A stretch of 43,055 nucleotides of DNA from assembly GCA_011174845.1 (NCBI GenBank), contig DUEW01000006.1:56459-99513 (forward strand), read 5' to 3'. The stretch's first letter is position 1. Each line of letters begins with the position of its first letter. The notes under the pieces are model-generated. The model was not told the DNA's origin and searched no databases. It saw only the letters and a program-made list of their open reading frames with translations. This document shows positions 10,681 through 33,607 of this stretch, in pieces. The position numbers and the translations under genes are program-made. The DNA is from Anaerolineae bacterium. Its GTDB lineage: Bacteria > Chloroflexota > Anaerolineae > Anaerolineales > E44-bin32.

Positions 10681-11592
10681 TCATGCGTCAGGTTCTGTGG
10701 GATCTAATAGGGCGATCAAGCCTAATGTCCCCATGTCAGCAAACAACATGGGAGCCAGGAAAGGCGCGCCGCGAATGAAGCGCTCCGTCACGATTTTTCC
10801 CCCAGCAACAAGATCTTCGCTGACATGCAGGCTCAACCCCAGAATGCCCAGGATGATGAGAGCAATCATTGCACCCGTATAGATGATGTAATCACTTCGC
10901 CCGGGATTTTCTAGAGCGCCCATGATCACGGGTATCACTGTACCAATAATCCCCACTGCAGCTGAAAACCATAACCACGGATTGACGAATCCAGTACGAG
11001 CGTGATCGAAGATCATGCTGATTAGACTGGCCAAGACGCCTAACCCCACAAGGAAATAAAAGGCTCTTGTTTTACTAAAAGGTAGATGTAGCCGTATGCC
11101 TCGTATCAAAGTAAGAATCCCGCTCTCTGGGGGAATTTCAACCCAAGCAGCGCTCAGACCAAGAACCCCCACAAGCGAGAAAGTCAATGGTCCAAGGATG
11201 GGCGGTGCCCAAATTAGAAGATCTATGGTCACCCATTTTCCTGAAGGTCCAGTTGGTAGGATTCCTCGACGAATATGAAAGTACGCACCGAGAAGTCCGA
11301 CCATGATGCTGGCCACAAAGATCAGGCTTGCCATCACATTCGCAAACATTCGTCTCCGAAGGGAGACGAGACCTAATGTGAGCAGAAGTATCCCTGCAAT
11401 CGGGCCGAAGATGATGGGGATCCTCTCTTTTGGCACGATGGTGCCGCTGATGCTGTGCGCTAAGAAGATGTCGATTCCGAGGAAGATTTCGTTGATGGCA
11501 GCCATGAGCAGGATGAGCTGATCTCGTGAGAATGGGATCCTTTCGATCTTCCTCAGCGGAGGGAAAACGGTACCCAGGTGGTGCACCGTCAC
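10681..11592 (-). CDS. uncharacterised 8-TM membrane protein, partner of octaheme cytochrome
   Basis: A 303-residue polytopic protein with about eight hydrophobic helices (near residues 25-45, 58-77, 84-106, 125-150, 176-197, 203-224, 236-256, 272-293). I do not recognise a family. It starts with GTG at 11592, overlapping the stop of the cytochrome gene by 4 bp (GTGA), so the two proteins are very likely made together. His residues sit near helix ends (FLAHSIS, AYFHIRR, IFDHART, LSLHVSED). That could fit haem b or quinone binding, but this is speculation from position only. If the cytochrome is an extracytoplasmic oxidoreductase, this protein is the natural candidate for its membrane electron partner. 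Confidence 0.78.
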   Translation of the reverse strand: MTVHHLGTVFPPLRKIERIPFSRDQLILLMAAINEIFLGIDIFLAHSISGTIVPKERIPIIFGPIAGILLLTLGLVSLRRRMFANVMASLIFVASIMVGLLGAYFHIRRGILPTGPSGKWVTIDLLIWAPPILGPLTFSLVGVLGLSAAWVEIPPESGILTLIRGIRLHLPFSKTRAFYFLVGLGVLASLISMIFDHARTGFVNPWLWFSAAVGIIGTVIPVIMGALENPGRSDYIIYTGAMIALIILGILGLSLHVSEDLVAGGKIVTERFIRGAPFLAPMLFADMGTLGLIALLDPTEPDA

Positions 11593-12878
11593 TCGCCTTC
11601 CACTGCTTCGAGTAACTTTTCTTCAACCAACTCGCGTAACTCTGCAAGGTCGCTCAGTACCTCATATGCGCCGTGCCACTGGGTGTAGTCTGGTCCTTGC
11701 ATCCATACCCCAAATTTAGCTGTTCGACCCCAATGATGCCAAAGTTCGAAGTACAAATAATCGATCGGTTCATCAAAGGGGTATGCAGTGAGCAACCCTG
11801 CATCATTAAGAGGAGCGATGATCTCATTGCTCTCCACGACCCAGGCGTTTACAGCCTCGGTTGCCTTGTCGGCAGCATTGTAAAAATAACTGATCATGTT
11901 TTCGTTATGACATTGAAGACAAACGCTTTGCATGTTCGTCATGTTTTCTTCCCAGGATGGTCTACGCTCACTGATCGGTGCAAATAAGTACCAAGTGAGA
12001 CGCTCTCCAACATCGTGGGAAGTTTCTGTCGTGCCGAAACCTCCGAAGTGACATAATGCACAGGTTGCTGCTGGAAAATCATCGACCGTGAGTGTACCGG
12101 CATCTGCTTCCCAATTCCATTGATCCCCGCTCGTTGCGTAAGCAATTCCATGTGGCGATTCGTGGTAAATCTCCCATTGTGGATGGTCGGGACCGATGTG
12201 ACAAAAATTACAGGTCTCGGGTTTGCGCGCCTGTTCAAGCGTGAACATGTGGCGCAGGTGACACTTCTTGCACTGGCCTGTTGAACCATCCTGGGATGGC
12301 TTGCCTACATCATGGCAAGCCTCGCATGCGAAGCGCGTCACATCATGGCCTTCCAGTGCATACAAGGCATTGCGTGATTTGTCCGGGGCATAACTGCCCT
12401 CTGGAATTGCTTGGTACTCGAGGAGCTGTTCGGGCGTTAAATCTTGACTTCCCGCGTATGCTACATAAGCGGGCAGAGCATGGCGGCTCTGTAAGAACTG
12501 CTCTATCTCTGCTTCATGGCATTGTTGACATCGGGCGGTCGTGGGTTGTCTTAGTACAAAGGTGCCTTCATGCTCTACTGCGCCAGGATACCCACCTTCA
12601 ACTTCATGGCAATCGCGACAGCTGACCTCGGCAGCAGCCATCGTGCTGCGACCGAACTGTAGCACAATCCCTGGGGTGGTATTCCCGTGACAGACAACGC
12701 ACTCATCAATACTGGTGGCTAATGCGTTGGGCCTCCGATCGCTTTCGCTCTCTCTGGTTGCTGTCGTTCCAATAACCATCACCACTACGGCTAAGCCTAG
12801 CAGGACAATGACGATGATCAGGCCGGTGATCATTAATCGAGCTGAACGAACCACATTTGAGACCCGATCTGTGTCCAT
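11589..12878 (-). CDS. octaheme cytochrome c, hydroxylamine oxidoreductase (HAO) family
   Basis: A 429-residue protein with an N-terminal TM anchor (about residues 12-38) and exactly eight CxxCH haem-binding motifs: CVVCH, CRDCH, CQQCH, CEACH, CKKCH, CNFCH, CALCH and CLQCH. The segments CHIGPDHPQWEIYHESPHG and SHDVGERLTWYL are typical of the HAO family. HAO enzymes oxidise hydroxylamine at a P460 haem; relatives oxidise hydrazine or reduce nitrite. The C-terminal GPDYTQWHGAYEV has two Tyr that could correspond to the P460 cross-linking Tyr, but this needs an alignment. The start is ATG at 12878, with GAGGAG 7 nt upstream, rather than the TTG of the ORF track. It is anchored on the outer face of the membrane and translationally coupled to an 8-TM protein. 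The direction of catalysis cannot be told from sequence alone. Confidence 0.85.
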   Translation of the reverse strand: MDTDRVSNVVRSARLMITGLIIVIVLLGLAVVVMVIGTTATRESESDRRPNALATSIDECVVCHGNTTPGIVLQFGRSTMAAAEVSCRDCHEVEGGYPGAVEHEGTFVLRQPTTARCQQCHEAEIEQFLQSRHALPAYVAYAGSQDLTPEQLLEYQAIPEGSYAPDKSRNALYALEGHDVTRFACEACHDVGKPSQDGSTGQCKKCHLRHMFTLEQARKPETCNFCHIGPDHPQWEIYHESPHGIAYATSGDQWNWEADAGTLTVDDFPAATCALCHFGGFGTTETSHDVGERLTWYLFAPISERRPSWEENMTNMQSVCLQCHNENMISYFYNAADKATEAVNAWVVESNEIIAPLNDAGLLTAYPFDEPIDYLYFELWHHWGRTAKFGVWMQGPDYTQWHGAYEVLSDLAELRELVEEKLLEAVEGE

Positions 12879-12969
12879 GAACATTCTCCTCTTCAATTAC
12901 AATCCACAGTTCATCCTAGATCGGAAAGGATCAGAGCGGTTCAAGAATCGCGCCGTACATTAGAAACAC

Positions 12970-12999
12970 AGTATATACTCGCGGCAAGCTCAACGTCAA
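12970..12999 (-). promoter_or_regulatory. sigma70-type promoter of the octaheme cytochrome operon
   Basis: Read on the minus strand, TTGACG (12994-12999), an 18-nt spacer and TATACT (12970-12975) form a good housekeeping-type promoter about 90 nt upstream of the cytochrome start. Nothing else in the 176-bp gap after the deacetylase gene competes with it. The prediction is by eye from consensus. Confidence 0.5.
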
Positions 13000-13054: not shown

Positions 13055-14164
13055 TCACGACAAACCATGACGCTCCTTCACATGTCCTACAACCTCCTCA
13101 ACCCTTTTCTTTGTAAGTGCTTGCACTCGCTCATCGATTTGCGGAGCTTGTTGGTCTTCCAACCATTCTCCTCCATATTTGGCTTGATACTGGGGAGGGA
13201 GCTTTGTTGGGAACGACTGCTCGGACATGATAGCGAATGCCAGCGTCCATGCGCGTGGAACCACATCGATGTCATATCCACCACCTCCAAGCGCCAGCCA
13301 GCATGAAGACAGGTGGCTGAACTTTTCGAAGATTGTCTTATGTCCGTGGGTCGTGAGCACCAGGCTGGCTAAAGGGTCCAAGTAATGGGTGTCGACACCG
13401 AGTTGGGTCACAAGGATATCGGGTTCGAAACGTTCCACCAACGGTGGTACGATTTGATCGAATGCCCAAAGGTAGATCTCGTCATCGGTATAGGGTGGTA
13501 GAGGTACATTGACGCTGTACCCTTCTCCCTCACCGACACCGATCTCGTCGATAAAACCCGTACCCGGGAAAATTGTACGTCCACTCTGGTGTAACGAGAT
13601 TGTGAGCACCCGATCCGTGTCGTAGAAGGCGTTTTGAACACCGTCAGCGTGGTGAACATCGATGTCGACATAAGCCACTCTCAATCCTTGGTTCATTAAC
13701 CAATGGATGGCGATAGCCGCATCGTTGAAGATGCAAAAACCTGAGGCGAAGTTTGGTCCTGCATGATGTAGTCCGCCGCTGTAGCTGAAAGCGACCTCAC
13801 AGTCGCGATTCACCAGCAACTTTGCACCCAGGAGTGTGCAGCCCACTTTGAGCCCTGCTGATTCGAACATGCCGCTGAAAACAGGGTTGTCGCCTGGCCC
13901 GAAGCCATAGCGAGAAGCGGGGATGTGGATCTCCCCCTTGCTCAGGGATTGTACGACGTCGAGGTATTCCCGGGTGTGGAAGAGCGCCAGTTCTTCATAG
14001 CTTGGAGGGATTGGATCGATGACACGGACATTTGAGGCTTCGAAGGCTCCCAACTCATGGAGGAGATCATACGTGCGTTGTAACCGCTCTTGTTTAAGGG
14101 GATGATTCGGACCGAACCCACCCTGCCAAAGCTTGGGCGAATTGAGAAAGACGACCTTTCGCAT
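13055..14164 (-). CDS. histone deacetylase-family protein (AcuC-like)
   Basis: A 369-residue zinc-dependent deacetylase of the arginase/deacetylase fold. Seen: the tandem active-site His in SGGLHHAGPNFASGFC, the zinc ligands Asp and His in YVDIDVHHADGVQNAFYD, the third ligand Asp in VTQLGVDTHYLDPLA, and the GGGGYD loop with the catalytic Tyr. All key residues are intact. Bacterial members include AcuC (deacetylates acetyl-CoA synthetase) and acetylpolyamine amidohydrolases; length and motif spacing favour AcuC-like. No acetoin genes are nearby, so the substrate is open. There is no strong Shine-Dalgarno before the ATG. It is divergent from the P-type ATPase, and the cytochrome operon downstream has its own promoter. 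Confidence 0.9.
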   Translation of the reverse strand: MRKVVFLNSPKLWQGGFGPNHPLKQERLQRTYDLLHELGAFEASNVRVIDPIPPSYEELALFHTREYLDVVQSLSKGEIHIPASRYGFGPGDNPVFSGMFESAGLKVGCTLLGAKLLVNRDCEVAFSYSGGLHHAGPNFASGFCIFNDAAIAIHWLMNQGLRVAYVDIDVHHADGVQNAFYDTDRVLTISLHQSGRTIFPGTGFIDEIGVGEGEGYSVNVPLPPYTDDEIYLWAFDQIVPPLVERFEPDILVTQLGVDTHYLDPLASLVLTTHGHKTIFEKFSHLSSCWLALGGGGYDIDVVPRAWTLAFAIMSEQSFPTKLPPQYQAKYGGEWLEDQQAPQIDERVQALTKKRVEEVVGHVKERHGLS

Positions 14165-19423: not shown

Positions 19424-22400
19424 GTGCAAAACGGCCAGCCTAGTCCTACCACACTAGAAACCGAGTCCCACTCTGGTGTATTCGAGACGGTGGGTCGATT
19501 GGAGAATTTGGCGCGCCGATTAGCGGAGAGACAAACCGTTACTAGATATCCCGTTCGTCGGAGCCCCATGACAAATCGTCTCAAGGAACTCGATACCCTT
19601 TTACACGACGCCTACCGCTATTTCGCTAAGGTATCCGAGGAAGATCCAACACTCTCCCAAGCGGCTGAATGGCTACTAGACAATTTCTATATAGGGCAGC
19701 AAGCACTGCGTCAAATCCGGGAGGATATGCCAGCCGGTTTTTATCGCCAATTACCCAAACTAGCTACACTACCCTTTGAGGGTTTCCCTCGCGTCTATTC
19801 ATTGGCTCGTGAAGTTATCGGGTATTGTGAAAACCGGCTAGAAGTTGGCATCGTAACCCGCTTCGTTCATGCCCACCAACGTATCAAATCGTTAACCATG
19901 GGCGAACTGTGGGCATTGCCGACCATGTTGCGTTTGGGGACATTGGAAAACCTAGTTGAAGCTCTTGCTCGTATCACAGGACTTCCAATTAAGGACAGTC
20001 GTGAGATCGCAATAGCATTGTCCTTCCCCATGACATTGACGGATGAGGAAATCGTCGCAAGTAGTATTGTCAGTCTGCGCACCTTGGCAGCGCAGGACTG
20101 GACAGCTTTCTTCGAAAACGTGAGTCATGTCGAGGGGATATTACGTGGCGATCCAGCGGAAATCTACCCTTATATGGATTTTGATACCCGTGATCGTTAC
20201 CGTAAAGTCATCGAGGAATTGGCTCGCCGAACATCATTTGATGAGGAAGAAGTTGCGAAGGAAGCCATTAAACTCATCAAAGATGTTCCCGCCCAGCAAG
20301 GGACTTCACGGGTCAATCATGTTGGTTTCTACCTCCTGGATGCAGGTCTTGTACAACTTGAAGCCCGTATTAACTTCCAACCTTCATGGCGTCTGCGGTT
20401 GCGTCGTTGGGTGTTCGCTCATCCTACCTTGATTTATTTCAATGCTATAGGCTTATTGGCCTTGGCTATCCTCTATAGCTTAATTCGTTATGTGCATATG
20501 GCGGGTGGGAATTTCTTACACCTTATCGGGACAAGTCTATTGCTCATCATACCGGGGTTGACCGTGGCAGTCGACTTGATCAATTGGCTCATCACAAACA
20601 CTGTTCAACCTCGTGTGTTGCCCAAAATGGAATTCAAGGATGGCATCCCAACCCAATATTGTTCTGTCATAGCCATCCCTGCACTCCTAAGCCACCCAAG
20701 CGATGTCGAATCCGTGTTACAGCAAATGGAACAGCATTATTTGGGCAATGCGGACCCACATCTTCATTTCATCCTGCTCACGGATTTCGTGGATGCGCCT
20801 CAACTTGAAATGCCCGGGGATCAAGCCTTGCTTGACTTGGCGAAGGCCGGTATCCAAGTTCTTAATACAAGATATGCTCGGGAAACTGATGATCTTTTCT
20901 ATCTTTTCCATCGACAACGAAAGTGGAACTCGAGTGAGGATTGTTGGATGGGGTGGGAGCGTAAAAGGGGGAAATTGGTCGAGCTTAATCGCTTGATTCT
21001 TGGTGAGACCAGTGAAACAGATAGAACTCCTGTTGAAAAGAGTAACGGTGAGACATCCTTCAGCCTAATAGTTGGGGATCTCGACATCTTGTCAAAGGTC
21101 AAGTATGTCATTACGCTGGATGATGACACCACTTTACCCCCTGGTGGTGCACGACGATTGATCTCTGCACTTGCACATCCTCTGAATCGTGCTGAATTTG
21201 ACCCTGTTACCGGGGACTTGATCTCCGGATACACAGTGCTTCAACCGCGAGTGGAGATGAGACCGGCGAGCGCGAACCAATCGATATTCACTCGGATATT
21301 CTCTGGAGACATCGGCTTGGATTTGTATTCGCGAGCGGTATCAGATGTATACCAGGACTTTTTCGGTGAAGGGATCTATGCCGGTAAAGGCATTTACGAT
21401 GTGGCTGCCTTCGAGCATAGCCTTAACGAACGGGTGCCCGAAAACACATTACTCAGCCATGACCTTTTTGAGGGGATCCACGGTCGCGCTGGGCTAGTGA
21501 CGGATGTGATTTTGCTCGAAGATTATCCTCCCAATTACCACATCTACACACAACGTTTACACCGATGGATCCGAGGAGATTGGCAGTTATTACCTTGGTT
21601 GTCGTTCAACGTGCCTCGAGAAAGTGGGGAGAGGGAGCCCAATGATCTCTCCGTGCTCAATAGATGGAAAATCTTTGATAATCTCCGCCGCAGCTTGATC
21701 ATGCCGTCGCTGTTGGCCTTAATCATCGCGGGTTGGTTGTGGTTGCCTGGGTCAGCGATCGTCTGGATGATGGTGGTCTTGCTTACTCCGGTGGTGCCGT
21801 TCGCAACTAGTTTGGTTAGTGGGTTGATTCGTGGTCTAAGGAATCTATCCATGGAGGGGTTCCTTCAGTCTATACAGCCGGTTGCCCTCCGGTGGCTATT
21901 AGCAATTATTTTTTTCCCTCATGAAGCTATCATCGTCTTAGACGCTGTTGCCGCGACGCTGGTCCGGCTGCTGATCACCCATAGACGTTTATTGCAATGG
22001 ACTCCCGCCGCGCATTCGATTCGTATCTTTGGCTTAGAAACAAAGCTGGCGCTGATGTGGAGGCGAATGATCGGAGCGCCAGTTATTAGTATGGCGCTTG
22101 CCATGTTGGTATGGCTGTTCAACCCAGTGGCATTACCCATCGCCGCTCCTTTATTACTCCCTTGGCTGATTTCGCCCATGATTGCACACTGGATCAGCCT
22201 ACATTCAGTTTACCGACCTCCTCCTCTTTCAGCGGATCAGCGTCAGCAGTTACGTGGCTTGGCTCGACGCACTTGGTGTTACTTTGAGCAATTTATCGGT
22301 CCCGACGATCATTGGCTACCCCCTGATCACTTTCAAGAAGATCCGCGCGGCATCGTCGCTCACCGCACCTCGCCAACGAATATAGGATTGATGCTGCTCT

Positions 22401-25400
22401 CCACCTTGGCTGCCTTTGACATGGGTTATCTCGGTCCATTGGATCTGGTTCTACGTCTACGCGCTACATTTGACACCATGGATCAGTTGGAACGTTATCG
22501 AGGCCATTTTCTAAATTGGTACGATACGAGCACGCTTGAACCGCTACCCCCACGCTATGTATCGACCGTTGACAGTGGTAACCTCGCCGCATGTTTGCTA
22601 GCCCTGAGGCAAGGTTGTCTGGAATTACCTCAAACGCCAATCCTGCTCTGGCAACGTTGGCAGGGTCTCCTCGATATTTTGGCTGCCCTCAGCGAGACGT
22701 TAGAAGATCTTGATAGCAAGGAACTTGAGCATGTCCTAAGACCATTACAGGCATACTTGGATCATCTTCGTGACCGGATCCTCGCGGTGCAATACGAACC
22801 TGAAAATTGGCCGCAACTGTGGTCCTATCTATATAACGAAGCATGGCAAGAATTGAATCAACTTTTAACGTCGTTTGTTGAATCCGGCGCTTCTATGCTC
22901 GACGCCATGCTGCTGAGCGATATGCGCATTTGTGCGGACCATATTCAAAATCATCTTTTCAGTGCGAACCGCGAAGCGAGCATGATGCTTCGGTGGCTTA
23001 CTCTTTTGAAACAACCCCCGCGCCTATTTCAGCACCTGAAGAAGGATCCGACGAGTACTGAAGACGACCGTAAAGATATTGAGGTGATGTGGCAAGCATT
23101 GGTTGCTGCCTTGCCAACAACGGCACGGCTCACCGAGGTGAAGGAGGTTTGCAGAGCTGCGCAGATTCTCGTGTCAGAGCTGCGGGAGCGGATCACCGAT
23201 CAAACCGGCCCATTGGACCAAATCGAGGAAGCCAGGATTTGGTGTAAGCAACTAAACGAGGAGTTGAGAGATGCCCGAATGGCAGTAGAGGTCATATTAT
23301 ATGGCTATAGAGACTTAGCAGAGCTAGCAGAAGTGTTCTTCAACGAGATGGACTTTGGTTTCTTATTTGACCCTAAACGCCAGGTATTCCACATTGGACA
23401 CAACGTTGCTGCTGAGAAGTTAGACCAGAATTACTACGATTTGTTAGCGTCCGAGTCGAGAATAGCCAGTCTGTTGGCGATTGCCAAGGGTGATGTACCT
23501 CAAAGTCATTGGTTGCACCTCGCCCGTCCCCTGACAAAAATTGATGGCACCCGAGTGCTCCTCTCTTGGAATGGGAGCATGTTCGAGTATCTCATGCCCT
23601 TATTGCTATTACGTGGTTACGAAGAAACCCTTCTAAATCAAAGTTGTCGCGTGATTGTCAGGCGTCAGATTCAGTACGCGCGTCATAGAGGCAGCCCCTG
23701 GGGCATCTCTGAGTCGGGATATTATCGGTTCGATGCGAATATGAATTATCAATATCGGGGATTTGGGATTCCAGGTCTGGGTTTCAGGCGTGGGCTAGGC
23801 GAGGATCTGGTCATTTCGCCCTACGCTTCTCTGATTGCCCTCTCGCTTTTCCCACAATCTGTAATGGGAAATATCCAGCGGCTTCTAGAGCTTAAGATGG
23901 TAGGACATTATGGTTTTTATGAAGCTATTGACTACACCTCTTCACGTTTACCTGCGAAGCAGGAGCATGCAATTGTGCAATCCTACATGGCGCACCATCA
24001 AGGCATGATCTTGATAGCTCTTGCTAATTATCTTCAAGATGAGGTGATGGTAAGGCGCTTCCACGCTGATCCCCGTGTACAGAGCGTAGATATGCTCTTG
24101 CAAGAGAGGGTGCCGAGGCGAGTCTCTGTCGAATATCCACACCCTCAGGAAGTAAGACCTATCCATCCGGCTGAATCTTTGGTCGTAATCTCACCTTGGC
24201 AGGTTCCGGTGGACAGGTCGCTCCCCTATGTGAATTATCTCTCCAACGGTCGGTATTGTGTGTTCATCACAAGCTCTGGTGGAGGTTTTAGCCGTTGGCA
24301 AGGAATCGACCTTACGCGTTGGCGTGCTGACACTACCCTCGATGCCTGGGGAACCTGGATCTACATTCAAGATAGGGATCTTGGCGCTCTCTGGTCAGCC
24401 ACTTATCAACCTACAGTTTCTCCCCCAGAAAGCCAAACAGTGCTCTTTTCACCCCACAAAACTGAATTTCAACGACGAGATCACGATATCTCCCTGCATA
24501 TGGAAATCACCGTACCGCCGGAAGATGATGTAGAGGTTCGGCGCCTCACCCTGATCAACCATAGTGATCGTACGCGACACTTGGCGTTAACTAGCTACGC
24601 TGAAGTCGTTCTTGCGCTCCAATCTGATGACAGACGTCATCCGGCCTTTAATAAACTTTTTGTAGAAAGTGAATATCTGCCCGAATTCAATACGATGTTG
24701 TATCGCCGTCGTTCCCGTTCTGCGGATGAAACTCCAATCTACATGGCTCACTCACTGGTGTTGGAGCAGGGTCTTGACATCACGGGCGCTTATGAAGGTG
24801 ATCGGGGTCGATTTCTTGGTAGAGGCAGATCTCCCCGTTCACCAGTAGCCTTAGAAAGAACGGATCGATGGCTTTCTGGAGCCATCGGTTCCACCTTGGA
24901 TCCGATCATGGCCCTTGGTCAGGAGATTCAACTGGAACCGTACACGAAGGTGCAGATTGCTTATATGACCCTGGCAGCAGGTTCGAGAGAAGAGGTCCTG
25001 GAGCTTGTTGACCGATATCAGGCATGGCATCGGATTGAACGGTCTTTTGACCTTGCCCGAGCTCATAGCGAACGTGAGCTGCGACAATATGGTCTCTCAA
25101 GCCGGGATGTCGAATACAATCAACTCCTCTTGTCCTTTCTCCACTACCCTTATAAAGATCTACGAGCTGATCCCAATACACTGGCCACCAATACGAAAGG
25201 ACAATCAGGATTATGGGCCTATGCAATTTCTGGCGACTATCCGATTCTGTTGGTAAAGATCAAAAACTTGGAAGAATTGGCTCTGGTACGTGAAGTACTG
25301 CTAGCTCATGCTTACTGGCGTGAAAAAGAGATCAAGGTCGATTTGGTCATCGTCAATCAACGGGAAACGGGGTACGACCAGGAATTGCAAGCGCAACTTC

Positions 25401-28105
25401 TCCAACTTATCAAGCGAGTTAAAGCTGACACTTGGCTGGATCGACGGGGTGGAATCTTTTTATTACGCGCTGATCAAATGCGAGAGGACAATCGGGTACT
25501 GCTGGAAACGGCTGCTCGAGTTATTCTCGATGGAAGGAAAGGTTCTCTACCTGAACAGCTTGATCAACTGCGTCCCTACCCGGCTCGTCTTCCGCACTTT
25601 GTTCCCACATTACCCGGTCCTGAAGATGTCGAACCAACGCCACCTTTGATCCGTCCCACGGATCTTCTATTCGATAACAGCATCGGTGGATTCAGCCCTG
25701 ATGGACGAGAGTATGTGATTTGGCTTGAGCCAGGCCAATGGTCACCAGCCCCCTGGGTCAACGTCATCTCCAATCCCAATTTTGGCTTCCTGGTGTCCGA
25801 GTCAAGTTTAGGCTTTACCTGGTGCGAAAATAGCGGCGAGAACCGGCTGACCCCTTGGCGCAATGACCCGGTGAGCGATGATCCGGCTGAGGCTTTGTAT
25901 TTACGTGATGAAGAAACAGGGCAGATTTGGTCACCCACACCCTCGCCCGCTGGTACATCAGCTCCTTATCTAATCCGACACGGAGCTGGCTACTCTGTCT
26001 TCGAGCATCATAGCCATGGCCTCAAACAGCAATTACGTATATTTACTCCCCAGGACGCACCTATAAAGGTGATTGGATTACGGTTAGAAAACATGTGGCA
26101 TCGTCATCGACGGATAACAGCGACCTATTATGCTGAATGGGTACTGGGCACAGACCGGGATGAAACCCAACAATATATTGTGCTTGAGTTCAATCCTGAA
26201 ACCCAAACGCTTCTAGCTCGTAATCCTTATAATGCCGATTTTGGTGAACGGGTCGCATTTTTAACCACCATTGAAGAACCTCATGGTCTGACTGCTGATC
26301 GGGCTGAATTTCTCGGTCGGATGGGAAGCCTGCAACGTCCAGTAGCGTTGGCGCGCGTCGGCCTAGCCGGCACAGTAGAAAGTGGTCTGGATCCGTGTGC
26401 GGCGATACAACTTCATGTTGAATTAGACGCTGGAGAGGGTAAAGAAGTCTTTTTCTTGCTGGGAGAGGAAAGAGATCATCAAGCTGTGCTCAAATTAGTG
26501 AAGCAATACCAAGACCCGGCGCATATAGAGGCAGCATGGCAGGGTCTACAAGAGTTATGGGACAACCTCTTAGGTGCCGTCGAGGTGGTAACACCCGACC
26601 CGACCATGAATTTACTCACGAACCGTTGGTTGTTGTACCAAGTGATATCTAGTCGAGTCTGGGGAAGGTCTGCTCTTTATCAATCAAGTGGGGCTTATGG
26701 CTATCGAGATCAACTTCAAGACGTCATGGCCCTAATGTATTCAATCCCGGAGGTTGCGCGAGATCACATCTTGGATGCTGCATGTCATCAATTCGAAGAG
26801 GGGGATGTCTTGCATTGGTGGCATCCGCCCTCCGGCCGAGGAGTGCGTACACGCTGTTCAGATGATCTATTATGGCTTCCATATGTGACGGCACATTATG
26901 TTGCCACAACCGGTGATCACTCAATCTTAAGTGAACAAATACCCTTTCTGAAGGGTGAGCCCCTGGAAGAGGACGAGCAGGAGCGGTATGGTCATTATGT
27001 GACCATTGGTGAGAGTCATACACTCTATGAGCATTGTCAACGAGCGTTGAAGAAAGGTTCAACGAGGGGTCAGCATAACCTACCCCTGATCGGCAGTGGG
27101 GATTGGAACGACGGTATGAGTCGGGTGGGCATAGAAGGCCGCGGTGAAAGTGTATGGCTGGGGTGGTTCTTATACGCTACCTTGAATCGTTACGCTTCCT
27201 TGTGTGATCTTATGGGTGATGAGGAGCAAGGAGCCTCATACCGACAGCAGTCATCGGAATTGCTCCAGGCGATAGAAGCGAACGCTTGGGATGGGAATTG
27301 GTACCGGCGAGCGTATTATGACGATGGCACACCACTGGGATCGATCGAAAATAATGAATGCCAGATCAATTCCATTGTTCAATCTTGGGCTATCTTATCC
27401 GGAGTAGCCAACGACGAGGTGGCTCGAGGTGGATCTCAGAAGCTTGGTCATGAAATCCGTGGGCGAGCGGAGCGCGCCATGAAATCCGTCACTGAACGAC
27501 TTGTGCGCGATGACCAACAGATATTGCTTCTTGTCCCCCCATTCGATAAGACATCACGTGATCCGGGGTATATCAAGGGTTATCCGCCGGGTATCCGCGA
27601 AAATGGGGGTCAATATACGCACGCTGCGTTGTGGATCGCATGGGCTTTTGCTGATTTAGGGGAGGGGGATCGCGCAGAGGCATTGTACCGGATCCTAAAT
27701 CCCATTTACCGCGGAAACACGCTAGATAAAGTCGAACGCTATAGGGTAGAACCCTATGTTGTGGCGGCGGACGTGTATAGCGTTCCGCCTCACATTGGAC
27801 GGGGTGGTTGGACCTGGTACACTGGCTCGGCAGGTTGGATGTATCGCTTGGGTTTGGAGGCCATCCTAGGATTGCGACGGGTGGGAAAGGCGCTTCAAAT
27901 CAATCCTTGCATTCCTGGCAAATGGTCTGGCTATGAAATCACCTACAAGGATGGGGATACCTCTTATCGCATCCTCGTTGATAATCCAGAAGGCGTCAAC
28001 TGTGGGGTAAAGGAAACGACGTTGGACGGAAAGATCCTGACTGGTGTGGATATTCCACTATTGGAAGATGGTGAAGATCATACAATCCACATCAAGATGG
28101 GCTGA
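19424..28105 (+). CDS. ndvB: cyclic beta-1,2-glucan synthase-like protein (NdvB/ChvB family)
   Basis: A giant 2893-residue membrane enzyme with the NdvB/ChvB/Cgs layout (family members are about 2800 residues). Order: helical N-terminal region; two TM helices near 335-390; a GT84 glycosyltransferase domain with the nucleotide-sugar site LDDDTTLPPGG (Asp566-568) and the QRLHRW motif near 710; about five TM helices at 760-920; a glycoamylase-like region starting near RGIVAHRTSPTNIGL (about 975) and including ESGYYRFDANMNYQYRG; two GH94-type beta-sandwich regions; and the C-terminal GH94 phosphorylase domain with GSGDWNDGM (Asp2563, general acid). In rhizobia the enzyme makes, cyclises and trims cyclic beta-1,2-glucan from UDP-glucose. 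Start is GTG at 19424, 3 bp after the UspA stop with AAGGGA upstream. No frameshift is seen. Glucan product and cyclisation here are inferred. Confidence 0.9.
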   Translation: MQNGQPSPTTLETESHSGVFETVGRLENLARRLAERQTVTRYPVRRSPMTNRLKELDTLLHDAYRYFAKVSEEDPTLSQAAEWLLDNFYIGQQALRQIREDMPAGFYRQLPKLATLPFEGFPRVYSLAREVIGYCENRLEVGIVTRFVHAHQRIKSLTMGELWALPTMLRLGTLENLVEALARITGLPIKDSREIAIALSFPMTLTDEEIVASSIVSLRTLAAQDWTAFFENVSHVEGILRGDPAEIYPYMDFDTRDRYRKVIEELARRTSFDEEEVAKEAIKLIKDVPAQQGTSRVNHVGFYLLDAGLVQLEARINFQPSWRLRLRRWVFAHPTLIYFNAIGLLALAILYSLIRYVHMAGGNFLHLIGTSLLLIIPGLTVAVDLINWLITNTVQPRVLPKMEFKDGIPTQYCSVIAIPALLSHPSDVESVLQQMEQHYLGNADPHLHFILLTDFVDAPQLEMPGDQALLDLAKAGIQVLNTRYARETDDLFYLFHRQRKWNSSEDCWMGWERKRGKLVELNRLILGETSETDRTPVEKSNGETSFSLIVGDLDILSKVKYVITLDDDTTLPPGGARRLISALAHPLNRAEFDPVTGDLISGYTVLQPRVEMRPASANQSIFTRIFSGDIGLDLYSRAVSDVYQDFFGEGIYAGKGIYDVAAFEHSLNERVPENTLLSHDLFEGIHGRAGLVTDVILLEDYPPNYHIYTQRLHRWIRGDWQLLPWLSFNVPRESGEREPNDLSVLNRWKIFDNLRRSLIMPSLLALIIAGWLWLPGSAIVWMMVVLLTPVVPFATSLVSGLIRGLRNLSMEGFLQSIQPVALRWLLAIIFFPHEAIIVLDAVAATLVRLLITHRRLLQWTPAAHSIRIFGLETKLALMWRRMIGAPVISMALAMLVWLFNPVALPIAAPLLLPWLISPMIAHWISLHSVYRPPPLSADQRQQLRGLARRTWCYFEQFIGPDDHWLPPDHFQEDPRGIVAHRTSPTNIGLMLLSTLAAFDMGYLGPLDLVLRLRATFDTMDQLERYRGHFLNWYDTSTLEPLPPRYVSTVDSGNLAACLLALRQGCLELPQTPILLWQRWQGLLDILAALSETLEDLDSKELEHVLRPLQAYLDHLRDRILAVQYEPENWPQLWSYLYNEAWQELNQLLTSFVESGASMLDAMLLSDMRICADHIQNHLFSANREASMMLRWLTLLKQPPRLFQHLKKDPTSTEDDRKDIEVMWQALVAALPTTARLTEVKEVCRAAQILVSELRERITDQTGPLDQIEEARIWCKQLNEELRDARMAVEVILYGYRDLAELAEVFFNEMDFGFLFDPKRQVFHIGHNVAAEKLDQNYYDLLASESRIASLLAIAKGDVPQSHWLHLARPLTKIDGTRVLLSWNGSMFEYLMPLLLLRGYEETLLNQSCRVIVRRQIQYARHRGSPWGISESGYYRFDANMNYQYRGFGIPGLGFRRGLGEDLVISPYASLIALSLFPQSVMGNIQRLLELKMVGHYGFYEAIDYTSSRLPAKQEHAIVQSYMAHHQGMILIALANYLQDEVMVRRFHADPRVQSVDMLLQERVPRRVSVEYPHPQEVRPIHPAESLVVISPWQVPVDRSLPYVNYLSNGRYCVFITSSGGGFSRWQGIDLTRWRADTTLDAWGTWIYIQDRDLGALWSATYQPTVSPPESQTVLFSPHKTEFQRRDHDISLHMEITVPPEDDVEVRRLTLINHSDRTRHLALTSYAEVVLALQSDDRRHPAFNKLFVESEYLPEFNTMLYRRRSRSADETPIYMAHSLVLEQGLDITGAYEGDRGRFLGRGRSPRSPVALERTDRWLSGAIGSTLDPIMALGQEIQLEPYTKVQIAYMTLAAGSREEVLELVDRYQAWHRIERSFDLARAHSERELRQYGLSSRDVEYNQLLLSFLHYPYKDLRADPNTLATNTKGQSGLWAYAISGDYPILLVKIKNLEELALVREVLLAHAYWREKEIKVDLVIVNQRETGYDQELQAQLLQLIKRVKADTWLDRRGGIFLLRADQMREDNRVLLETAARVILDGRKGSLPEQLDQLRPYPARLPHFVPTLPGPEDVEPTPPLIRPTDLLFDNSIGGFSPDGREYVIWLEPGQWSPAPWVNVISNPNFGFLVSESSLGFTWCENSGENRLTPWRNDPVSDDPAEALYLRDEETGQIWSPTPSPAGTSAPYLIRHGAGYSVFEHHSHGLKQQLRIFTPQDAPIKVIGLRLENMWHRHRRITATYYAEWVLGTDRDETQQYIVLEFNPETQTLLARNPYNADFGERVAFLTTIEEPHGLTADRAEFLGRMGSLQRPVALARVGLAGTVESGLDPCAAIQLHVELDAGEGKEVFFLLGEERDHQAVLKLVKQYQDPAHIEAAWQGLQELWDNLLGAVEVVTPDPTMNLLTNRWLLYQVISSRVWGRSALYQSSGAYGYRDQLQDVMALMYSIPEVARDHILDAACHQFEEGDVLHWWHPPSGRGVRTRCSDDLLWLPYVTAHYVATTGDHSILSEQIPFLKGEPLEEDEQERYGHYVTIGESHTLYEHCQRALKKGSTRGQHNLPLIGSGDWNDGMSRVGIEGRGESVWLGWFLYATLNRYASLCDLMGDEEQGASYRQQSSELLQAIEANAWDGNWYRRAYYDDGTPLGSIENNECQINSIVQSWAILSGVANDEVARGGSQKLGHEIRGRAERAMKSVTERLVRDDQQILLLVPPFDKTSRDPGYIKGYPPGIRENGGQYTHAALWIAWAFADLGEGDRAEALYRILNPIYRGNTLDKVERYRVEPYVVAADVYSVPPHIGRGGWTWYTGSAGWMYRLGLEAILGLRRVGKALQINPCIPGKWSGYEITYKDGDTSYRILVDNPEGVNCGVKETTLDGKILTGVDIPLLEDGEDHTIHIKMG

Positions 28106-30886: not shown

Positions 30887-33607
30887 TCATGGAATACGGG
30901 CGGATATTTCAGAAGCGGGTAATTGGAAGGTAGTAAAATTTCTACCGGGACCTGCGATCTCATCCCAACGGAAAGTTTCAATCAATACCGGCTCTTCCCC
31001 AAAATAATTGAAGAGCTTAACTTCTGTCCAGCCTAGATGGCCGCGTTCAATTCTTAATGTTAGCGTGCCATCCGGATCCATATCGGTAAAGAGGATATCG
31101 ATAACGAGCTCTACCACCCCTCTTTCTTCTGCTCTCTCAATTGGTTGCTGAAGAAAGAGATCACCATCGACCATCCCGGCGACTTCAGCTTCCTCGCTCA
31201 CCAAGACAATGCTCGGGCGAATCCAAGAAGCGCCATTGACGATTTTAAAGATTGTCCAATCGGAAGTGGTTGTAATATGAACTTGGGCACGGTATGTTGC
31301 AGGCCATTCGGTGTCGAGGAATTGATCGACAAATTCGCGCGTGAGCCTTAAATACCCCTCTGGGCCGAGTTCGCCATAATCGGAGTAGGTGAAATCCCGG
31401 TTGTTCGTCTTCCCCATGTCTGCTGGCTCAATCTGGGTCCCCTCATGCCACTCGTTGAAAGAGGTGATGGTGACCATCTGAGGTTCCACGCTGGTACCAA
31501 GAGCGGTTCGCCACTGCTCTTCGTATGTTGCGCCATCTCGACGAGGAACGTTGTAGCTCTCTGGATAGCCTATTCTCTGACCAGAGAAGCCAGGTATGAC
31601 ACTGGGGACGTACCATGCATGCTGAGGGATATTCCAAGCCCAGTTAAAACTTTCTCCTGGTACATGGTTTAGAGTGACGTAGTTATACATTCCGTCAAAA
31701 TGTCCACGGTCAATCCAATTGGCCTCGATTGTCTGAGCGATCACCAAACCGCCATCGGGCAAATTGTGGATCGCTTCTATTGCGTCCGCCCAATGTTCAG
31801 GTTCGATCGGTTCTCCCTCCGGGGGCATCTGCGTGATATTAAAAACGAAAAACAGGCCTTTCGGGCGGTCATCGGGGCTCCAACGACTTTGGGCATTTGT
31901 GCGGAAAAAGGCCGGATGGCTGCCGTATCTGGCGTAGAGGTATCGGATGTCTTCGACGATTCGGCCAGGGGAGCGTCCATCATACGGTTCAAGGTGAAAG
32001 GCGACCTTGAGGTTATATCGCTCTGCCATCTCGAGCAGGAGCATGACGGCCTCATCCTCGATAGAATCTCGTCCCCACCAAGATGTGATGACGACACCGA
32101 CGCCAGCCTGGCGAAGCCAAGCGAAGTGTTGCGCCACGGCATGGGGATCAAATGAACTGTAAGTACCTAAGAGTGGGTAATAATCGCTGCTGATGTCAAT
32201 CGGTGGATCGAAATCCGGTTCTTCCCAATGGATCCAACGATCGTGAATTTCTGGGTTACTGTACCAGGGGTAATAGAATATGCCTATCCTGTAGGAGGGT
32301 TCAGGGCCTTCAACCGGCGGGAAGGTCTTGGTTGGTAATGGGGTCGGTTCTGCTGGTAGTGCAGTTGCAGCGGCTGGTAGCGTGGGGCGGGGGGTTGGCA
32401 GAGGGGTTGAAATTGGCTGGGTGGTGAAAAGACCGTTTCCAGAGGTGAGCAATCCGATCACTACGATACCGACAATGATCACGCCGCCCGCTGCCCATCC
32501 CCAGACGGGTATCTTGAACCGTCCTCTCTTGACTACTGGCGTTGGTTCTAGCAGGGGTTCTACAACCGGAATCTCGGATTCGGGGATTTCGGGCTCAACA
32601 GGCTCTCTGATCTCCGGCTCCAAAACTTCGGGTTCAATGATCGTCGACTCTTTCTCAGGTTCTGAAATCACCTTGTCAGGTGCGAACGAAGGTTCTGGAG
32701 TGAGACCTTCCTCCTCTTCGGTAACCATTTCCTCGGGGATGACAACCTGTTCCTCAAAAGTCGCAACAGCCTCTGGCGCAACAGCCTCCCTCTCCTGCGT
32801 AATGTTTTTCTCGAGCTCAGCTGCGAACTCACCAGCGGTAGCGTACCGCCCTTCACGTTCTTTACATAGCACACGCTCGATGAGGGTTGCGAAATCGGGT
32901 TGTAGATCTGGTCTCGTGTCGAGGATGTTTGGTATTGGTTCTGTGATGTGTTTAATCGCGACACCGATCGGTGTGTCAGCTTCATAGGGGGGGTTCCCAG
33001 AGAGCATTTCGAACACGATCACACCGAGTGCGTACACGTCGCTCCGCAGATCGAGCTCGCGATCGCCGCGTGCTTGTTCGGGGCTCATATAGGCTGGAGT
33101 GCCGATAATCCCGCCCCCCGTGTAGGTGGTCGTCTCCTGAGTTAATTTAACGATGCCGAAATCGGTGAGGAAGGCATCGCCATGGTGATCAAACAAGATA
33201 TTTCCCGGCTTGATGTCGCGATGGATCATTCCTCGTTCATGAGCTTCGTCAAGGGCAGTGGCAAGTCTGGAAGTGATGTTCGAGATTTCTTCGAGGGAAA
33301 GTGGTCCCTGCTCTAATTTTGTGATCAGTGATCCGCCAATCATATGCCGCATGACGAGATAGGGTTGGCCTTCTTCCTCACCGAAATCGTAGACGGGGAC
33401 GATGGACGAGTGTTCAAGTGAGGCGATGGTCTTTGCCTCGCGCCTAAAGCGAGCGATAAAAGTGGGATCGTGCAGGAACTCGCGTGGAAGCAGCTTCACC
33501 GCTACGTCGCGCTCGAATCTCGGGTCGTGAGCGAGGTAAACCGTCGACATCCCGCCTCGACCGAGCTCCGAGAGGATTTCGTAGCGGCCGATCTTGCGGA
33601 GGGTCAC
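30887..33607 (-). CDS. receptor Ser/Thr protein kinase with extracellular GH99-like glycosidase domain
   Basis: A 906-residue fusion. Residues 8-265 are a PknB-type kinase with all key residues: GRGGMSTVYLA loop, Lys38 in VAVKLL, HRDIKPGN (Asp131), DFG (Asp149) and GTPAYMSPEQ. An acidic Glu/Pro-rich juxtamembrane region follows (about 270-360), then one TM helix (VWGWAAGGVIIVGIVVIGLL, 368-388) and a Thr/Pro stalk. Residues 440-770 match GH99 (endo-alpha-mannosidase/mannanase): RIGIFYYPWYS at the start, and SFNEWHEGTQIEP with Glu719 and Glu722 in the places of the catalytic pair. A beta-sandwich of about 130 residues ends the protein. Kinase inside and glycosidase outside suggests a receptor for, or enzyme on, alpha-mannose glycans. 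GTG start at 33607, with GAGAGGA upstream. Known GH99 proteins are not usually kinase-linked, so the fusion is unusual. Confidence 0.88.
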   Translation of the reverse strand: MTLRKIGRYEILSELGRGGMSTVYLAHDPRFERDVAVKLLPREFLHDPTFIARFRREAKTIASLEHSSIVPVYDFGEEEGQPYLVMRHMIGGSLITKLEQGPLSLEEISNITSRLATALDEAHERGMIHRDIKPGNILFDHHGDAFLTDFGIVKLTQETTTYTGGGIIGTPAYMSPEQARGDRELDLRSDVYALGVIVFEMLSGNPPYEADTPIGVAIKHITEPIPNILDTRPDLQPDFATLIERVLCKEREGRYATAGEFAAELEKNITQEREAVAPEAVATFEEQVVIPEEMVTEEEEGLTPEPSFAPDKVISEPEKESTIIEPEVLEPEIREPVEPEIPESEIPVVEPLLEPTPVVKRGRFKIPVWGWAAGGVIIVGIVVIGLLTSGNGLFTTQPISTPLPTPRPTLPAAATALPAEPTPLPTKTFPPVEGPEPSYRIGIFYYPWYSNPEIHDRWIHWEEPDFDPPIDISSDYYPLLGTYSSFDPHAVAQHFAWLRQAGVGVVITSWWGRDSIEDEAVMLLLEMAERYNLKVAFHLEPYDGRSPGRIVEDIRYLYARYGSHPAFFRTNAQSRWSPDDRPKGLFFVFNITQMPPEGEPIEPEHWADAIEAIHNLPDGGLVIAQTIEANWIDRGHFDGMYNYVTLNHVPGESFNWAWNIPQHAWYVPSVIPGFSGQRIGYPESYNVPRRDGATYEEQWRTALGTSVEPQMVTITSFNEWHEGTQIEPADMGKTNNRDFTYSDYGELGPEGYLRLTREFVDQFLDTEWPATYRAQVHITTTSDWTIFKIVNGASWIRPSIVLVSEEAEVAGMVDGDLFLQQPIERAEERGVVELVIDILFTDMDPDGTLTLRIERGHLGWTEVKLFNYFGEEPVLIETFRWDEIAGPGRNFTTFQLPASEISARIP

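Follow-up and report, generated by a model that had tools for sequence, protein, structure and literature searches.

How an octahaem cytochrome of the HAO family is tied to the respiratory chain is the question raised by one gene pair in a 43,055-nt stretch of Anaerolineae DNA, the whole of which we refer to as the window. HAO-family proteins occur in many phyla without a known role in nitrogen metabolism (PMC9213671), and the gene that follows the cytochrome in the window encodes a membrane protein with eight transmembrane (TM) helices. We therefore ask what the cytochrome is, how strictly the two genes belong together, what kind of protein the membrane partner may be, and in which direction electrons would flow between them. 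The features discussed are collected in the table.

Table. Features of the octahaem cytochrome gene and the adjoining membrane-protein gene, in window positions.
Feature	Position	Strand	Basis or remark
Octahaem cytochrome c, HAO family, 429 aa	11589..12878	(-)	ATG start; PF13447, PDB and relatives comparison
Cytochrome N-terminal TM anchor, residues 15-37	12768..12836	(-)	sequence; haem domain behind anchor
Eight CxxCH motifs, residues 60, 87, 117, 185, 203, 223, 273, 320	11907..12701	(-)	sequence
Asp231-His232 of cytochrome, at haem 6	12183..12188	(-)	equivalent to catalytic Asp267-His268, N. europaea HAO
C-terminal loop YTQWHGAY, residues 398-405 of cytochrome	11664..11687	(-)	Tyr467 column = Gln400
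Promoter-like site TTGACG-18-TATACT, best of the sites found	12970..12999	(-)	upstream of gene pair; number of sites at chance level
8-TM membrane protein, 303 aa, without Pfam/NCBIfam family	10681..11592	(-)	profile searches; AF2 model
GTGA overlap, four bases: cytochrome TGA (11591-11589), membrane-protein GTG (11592-11590)	11589..11592	(-)	sequence
4-TM repeat 1, residues 23-150	11143..11526	(-)	His46 (11455-11457), His106 (11275-11277); hhalign
4-TM repeat 2, residues 174-297	10702..11073	(-)	His197 (11002-11004), His256 (10825-10827)

By sequence comparison the cytochrome belongs to the HAO family far above chance. It matches PF13447 with an E-value of 2.6e-30, and its eight CxxCH motifs stand in the HAO order. 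Among solved structures, the PDB search finds IhOCC (4qo5, E 2e-31) and N. europaea HAO (E 2e-25), and a profile built from 13 relatives of the cytochrome finds the same two (E 1.3e-42 and 8.6e-29, respectively). Alignment to 1fgj identifies the motif at residue 185 as haem 4, the predicted active site. The Asp-His pair at haem 6 is kept in 71/71 pair-type cytochromes (those encoded beside the membrane gene), and the TM anchor is conserved across all pair-type relatives. A TTG codon at 12896 provides an alternative upstream start, giving 435 aa. The eight motifs, the N-terminal anchor and the HAO-type segments around haems 6 and 7 that the original prediction had pointed out are all present, and phylogeny upholds its family assignment, grouping the protein with the non-cross-linked (reductive) members of the HAO family. 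The "good promoter" it also reported did not hold up, as four sites were found against 3.0 ± 1.8 in shuffled sequences, which is the chance level.

The gene upstream on the same strand (13055-14164, -) encodes a histone-deacetylase-like amidohydrolase, which adjoins the pair also in the nearest relative (locus L002) and not generally. Elsewhere the window encodes a 2893-aa protein with a glucoamylase-like and two GH94 domains (19424-28105, +; cyclic glucan synthase-like) and a protein in which a Ser/Thr protein kinase domain and a glycosyl hydrolase family 99 domain are predicted to be fused (30887-33607, -). No Rfam families were found in the window.

A four-base overlap joins the cytochrome stop codon to the membrane-gene start, as had been read from the sequence earlier, and the two genes are closely associated elsewhere too. 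Scanning 84,980 species genomes with a profile of the membrane protein returned 76 loci, nearly all in Chloroflexota MAGs. An octahaem ORF lies directly upstream in 73 of these (71 intact with eight motifs, one split 3+4 and one cut to six); two of the remaining three show the cut end of a cytochrome, and the contig of the last starts at the membrane gene itself. Counting split and contig-truncated copies along with whole ones, the cytochrome is thus directly upstream in 75 of the 76 public loci, which bears out the linkage in relatives on which the original prediction had been made to depend. The same is seen from the side of the cytochrome. Close relatives (at least 61% identity) are present in 15 of 151 related genomes, and the membrane gene stands beside the cytochrome in exactly those 15. 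A phylum-wide sample of 400 genomes adds two more linked pairs and one exception, so that the pair is found in 17/18 genomes over both sets. The exception (genome G221, L141:5844-7217) is a clade-1 octahaem protein on a long branch, with a lipoprotein-type signal in place of the TM anchor and no 8-TM gene.

In about 11 loci the pair forms part of an operon with genes for a Rieske protein, cytochrome b, cytochrome c and Ccm proteins, a setting that supports a respiratory role. These operon loci include L127/L128 (genome G156) and about 10 more, for example L087, L103, L108, L109, L111, L116, L119 and L120. At the one locus where the operon was annotated in full, the order is Rieske, cytochrome b, cytochrome c, two hypothetical genes, octahaem and 8-TM protein, followed by CcmE, CcmF, CcmH, a thioredoxin-like protein (CcmG), a small TM protein, a cytochrome c, an ABC ATPase, CcmB and a CcmC-like protein. 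The pair also appears in MAGs labelled Planctomycetota, Bacteroidetes, Gemmatimonadetes, Acidimicrobiia, unclassified bacterium and Tectomicrobia (L088, L092, L101, L106, L112 and L115), for which horizontal transfer, mislabelling or misbinning could each be the cause.

What the membrane protein replaces is indicated by a sister clade of cytochromes in the same order. It is present in 14/151 genomes, which have no 8-TM gene. Its members share 33–37% identity with the window protein, the range for the matched portions in the 14 genomes being 33–41%, and those that are intact are lipoproteins. The sister-clade cytochrome adjoins a four-haem NapC/NrfH protein (PF03264 with E 1e-24 or better in 7/7 tested), and plasmid-borne relatives in Desulfobaculum and Desulfosarcina are NapC-linked as well. 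The pair-type and NapC-type clades never co-occur in one genome among the 151. No NapC/NrfH-family gene neighbours the octahaem gene of the window. That absence had been noted in the original prediction, and the comparison shows that the place beside the octahaem is held by the 8-TM protein. Since a NapC/NrfH protein stands there in the sister clade, the 8-TM gene fills the quinol-dehydrogenase slot.

The membrane protein had been described as belonging to no recognised family, and this description stands: hydropathy and an AlphaFold2 model support eight TM helices, no Pfam or NCBIfam model matches the window protein, and the 75 members of its family give only scattered weak matches to unrelated Pfam or NCBIfam families. 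Its two halves are homologous to one another (hhalign E 7.5e-13), with His46 paired with His197 and His106 with His256. Each repeat thus has one histidine near the end of TM1 and one near the end of TM3, and all four are invariant wherever the sequence is complete. The AlphaFold2 model, built from 75 sequences, has a pLDDT of 86 and a pTM of 0.87. Loop charges predict an N terminus on the inside and put all four histidines close to the outer face, on which the octahaem domain is predicted to sit. Foldseek searches of the PDB with two models found no match (best E 0.22). NrfD, NapC and b561 were considered as the family of this protein and discarded, as no match to them came from Pfam, NCBIfam, a sequence search of the PDB or Foldseek with both models.

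Homologues of this protein do exist in a different setting. The 75-sequence profile detects proteins of about 330–430 aa in 28 other Chloroflexota genomes, often with two repeat matches per ORF, and plasmid records add members from Granulicella, Deinococcus, Frondihabitans, Caballeronia, Paraburkholderia and Rhizobium. Aligned as profiles, this branch and the 8-TM family match over their full length (hhalign E 1.4e-15), and the reverse search with the profile of the distant branch returns exactly the 15 pair-bearing genomes among the 151 relatives. Genes for a Gluconate_2-dh3 protein and a GMC flavoprotein follow directly in 33/34 loci of this GMC branch, the remaining one being cut by a contig end, and the loci span five phyla (Acidobacteriota, Deinococcota, Actinomycetota, Pseudomonadota and Chloroflexota). 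The window pair, with an octahaem gene rather than these neighbours, represents a separate branch of the family of proteins with two four-helix repeats (2x4-TM). When the two repeats of the two branches are compared as four classes, no more than two histidines, three glycines and two prolines are conserved at 90% or above, and in a further 65 repeats both histidines are kept in 64–65, that is in every alignable case. The GMC-branch membrane proteins also match no Pfam or NCBIfam family. What is new here, on the evidence of these alignments, is that the membrane protein consists of two 4-TM repeats and is homologous to uncharacterised proteins of GMC operons.

In classical complexes of the gluconate 2-dehydrogenase type the flavoprotein is exported and a c-type cytochrome serves as a subunit. 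The Gluconate_2-dh3 and GMC subunits recur beside the distant homologues, but the operons of the GMC branch lack the usual cytochrome subunit, the 2x4-TM protein takes its slot, and no export signals were seen in the GMC-branch enzymes. The soluble partner in this branch therefore seems to lie on the opposite side of the membrane, with the topology of the branch tentative. In four GMC loci (L154, L156, L159 and L161) the 2x4-TM protein is split into two adjacent 4-TM genes, and in three (L146, L150 and L164) one ORF with a single 4-TM repeat was detected, which suggests the 4-TM repeat as the ancestral unit of the family. The operons at L130–L149 often include a thiamine-diphosphate enzyme, a mandelate racemase/enolase-type enzyme, an FAD-linked oxidase with FeS domains or a glycoside hydrolase 15, and probably belong to a sugar-acid pathway.

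Since one branch of the family is linked to an octahaem, the other branch to a flavin dehydrogenase, and each bundle has its histidine pair, the 2x4-TM protein is best understood as a quinone-reactive subunit. On balance we lean, though not far, towards a single complex made of a reductive-type octahaem enzyme and an 8-TM quinone-reactive subunit that probably carries haem b. Both gene products would form one membrane-bound respiratory complex. The octahaem protein, on the outer face and held by its N-terminal helix, would be the catalytic subunit, an HAO of the non-cross-linked, reductive type, and the 8-TM protein would be the membrane electron-transfer subunit, in the role that NapC/NrfH has in the sister clade. 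In each of the two homologous four-helix bundles, the invariant histidines near the same membrane face may together ligate a single haem b next to a quinone site, and electrons would pass from the membrane b-haem to the nearest c-haem of the octahaem protein. The same module would serve the GMC-type flavin dehydrogenase in the distant branch, as expected of a modular quinone-reactive subunit. Against this scheme stand the failure of Foldseek to match any known b-cytochrome or NrfD-like fold, the missing export signals of the GMC-branch enzymes, the partnerless lipoprotein cytochrome of G221, the indel in the cross-link loop, and the lack of a NarG over cut-off, as a source of nitrite, in the window's genome and most pair-bearing genomes. 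The suggestion that the membrane protein may be a new type of quinone or electron partner gains support from this comparison, through both the slot of NapC/NrfH in the sister clade and the homologues linked to flavin dehydrogenases. We think it reasonably probable, somewhat more so than the complete scheme, that the 2x4-TM proteins form a class of membrane electron-transfer subunits that had gone unrecognised, with a bis-His site per bundle, recruited by two unrelated enzymes, namely an octahaem c cytochrome in Chloroflexota and a GMC flavin dehydrogenase in at least five phyla.

The predicted direction of electron flow depends on the tyrosine that forms the P460 cross-link. We aligned 71 pair-type and 11 NapC-type cytochromes with six references; the C-terminal stretch of HAO was checked against the PDB record, where Tyr467 sits in GGWTYTEGW. 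The Tyr467 column holds Gln400 in 70/70 complete pair-type cytochromes, in a loop with one indel through which the register could shift by one or two residues. In the NapC-type clade this column is occupied by His, and Tyr is restricted to the HAOs of N. europaea and Ruegeria. A survey finds His at this site in reductive HAOs and Tyr in oxidative ones (PMC12758564), an agreement that supports the register for the NapC-type clade. Tyr398 and Tyr405, put forward earlier as possible cross-linking residues, were both rejected: Tyr398 aligns with the Trp465 column and Tyr405 likewise falls outside the Tyr467 column. Hydroxylamine or hydrazine oxidation is thereby made the less likely direction. Non-cross-linked members of the family are the reductive ones (PMC12758564; PMC3701875), and from the missing tyrosine we predict a reductive enzyme, whose likeliest substrate would be nitrite, NO or hydroxylamine. 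The pair-type cytochromes form one clade (support 100/99) well apart from cross-linked HAO in a tree built without an HDH sequence, and with few references and two long branches, since the references were plasmid-borne HAOs and PDB sequences.

The same complex could run in reverse: the octahaem would oxidise hydroxylamine, hydrazine or NO, and quinone would receive the electrons through the 8-TM protein, in analogy to the hydroxylamine:quinone module of ammonia oxidisers. The catalytic Asp267/His268 pair is conserved, pair-type cytochromes have a Tyr or Phe close to the position of Tyr334, and Tyr398 is invariant in 71/71, so that a shifted cross-link is conceivable; furthermore, the GMC dehydrogenase served by the distant homologues is an oxidative enzyme, and the Rieske/cytochrome b complex of some operons could take up the quinol. 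Against this, the cross-link column is Gln, the tree groups the protein with non-cross-linked members and far from true HAO, and no ammonia-oxidation gene was found within the window. We regard this reversal as unlikely, although it keeps some weight.

A reductive octahaem with the 8-TM protein as quinol partner might instead use an acceptor other than a nitrogen compound, such as sulfite, tetrathionate or a metal. Sulfite and tetrathionate reductases with eight haems belong to the wider fold family, and for one of the HAO clades beyond the nitrifier/anammox group, none of which has a known function, a role in sulfur reduction has been proposed (PMC9213671). NarG exceeds the family cut-off in only 3/15 pair-bearing genomes, and neither narG nor cox1 is significantly associated with the pair. 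However, the residues of the haem-4 pocket match those of HAO. NrfA is found in 1/29 genomes with either HAO clade and in 37/122 without (p 0.0016, not corrected for kinship), and this near-exclusion between NrfA and the two clades together fits nitrite chemistry, weakly. We consider a non-nitrogen acceptor rather unlikely and retain the nitrogen-compound reductase as the preferred reading.

In the genome of the window no NrfA, COX1 or NarG over cut-off was detected; this genome is an 81%-complete MAG, which makes such absences weak evidence. Prismane matches, present in 13/15 pair genomes, were considered as hydroxylamine reductase (Hcp) and rejected: the copy in the window's genome (G000:C2:2200-4900, L129) is the catalytic subunit of an anaerobic CO dehydrogenase (TIGR01702), and these matches are therefore uninformative on hydroxylamine. 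With a CO dehydrogenase present and no COX1 detected, the organism is likely to be anaerobic, as far as its gene content indicates.

Haem- or quinone-binding membrane bundles usually show two invariant histidines with neighbouring glycines. That the membrane protein is redox-inactive, an anchor or a factor for assembly or haem handling whose histidines are structural or metal-binding, would suit its strict linkage to two different enzymes, the Ccm genes after some pairs and the lack of a Foldseek match to a known redox fold, but we find it improbable, given that the cytochrome carries its own anchor, that in the GMC branch there is no haem to handle, the usual cytochrome subunit being absent from its operons, and that the two invariant histidines and neighbouring glycines of each bundle resemble just such a binding site.

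Set beside known systems, the proposed quinol-fed complex resembles the epsilon-HAO or reverse-HURM module, for example of Nautilia profundicola, in which HaoA is paired with NapC/NrfH/cM552 and electrons from quinol are predicted to serve nitrite reduction (PMC3701875). Both octahaems are non-cross-linked members of the HAO family and predicted to be quinol-fed, but the epsilon-HAO partner is a four-haem c-type NapC/NrfH protein, whereas the window partner is an unrelated 8-TM protein without c-haems, and the window catalytic subunit, unlike that of the epsilon-HAO/HaoCA module, has a TM anchor of its own. IhOCC of Ignicoccus hospitalis, the closest solved structure, is membrane-associated and also without the cross-link Tyr; it forms a long separate branch, and its equivalent of His268 is Val where the window cytochrome has His. 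HAO (1fgj, 4fas) and hydrazine dehydrogenase (6hif) share the eight haems, the motif order and Asp267/His268 with the window cytochrome, which differs in lacking a match at the cross-link column and a haoB/c554 context, in being about 100 residues shorter and in its membrane anchor.

Other octahaem and multihaem reductases also have membrane partners. An octahaem tetrathionate reductase has been reported in a cluster with the membrane b-type cytochrome b561 (PMC7509429), a similar arrangement with an octahaem of a different family; the window membrane protein has no Pfam or Foldseek match to cytochrome b561 or bc-type cytochrome b. NrfD has eight predicted TM helices (PMC12285233), and proteins of the NrfD/PsrC type (NrfCD, MccCD) are likewise 8-TM partners of multihaem reductases. 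The window protein, in contrast, matches them in neither sequence nor fold, has no FeS partner gene, and is built of two four-helix repeats with two invariant histidines each.

If the 2x4-TM proteins are such a new class of subunit, octahaem enzymes would have a fourth type of link to quinone, besides NapC/NrfH, the NrfCD type and b561. As a quinone module, the 2x4-TM protein would also account for an unannotated subunit of GMC dehydrogenases in five phyla, and would add a membrane redox fold that is absent from the PDB. For the HAO family, a partner so strictly linked and so widespread offers a concrete candidate complex through which its members may be tied to the respiratory chain.
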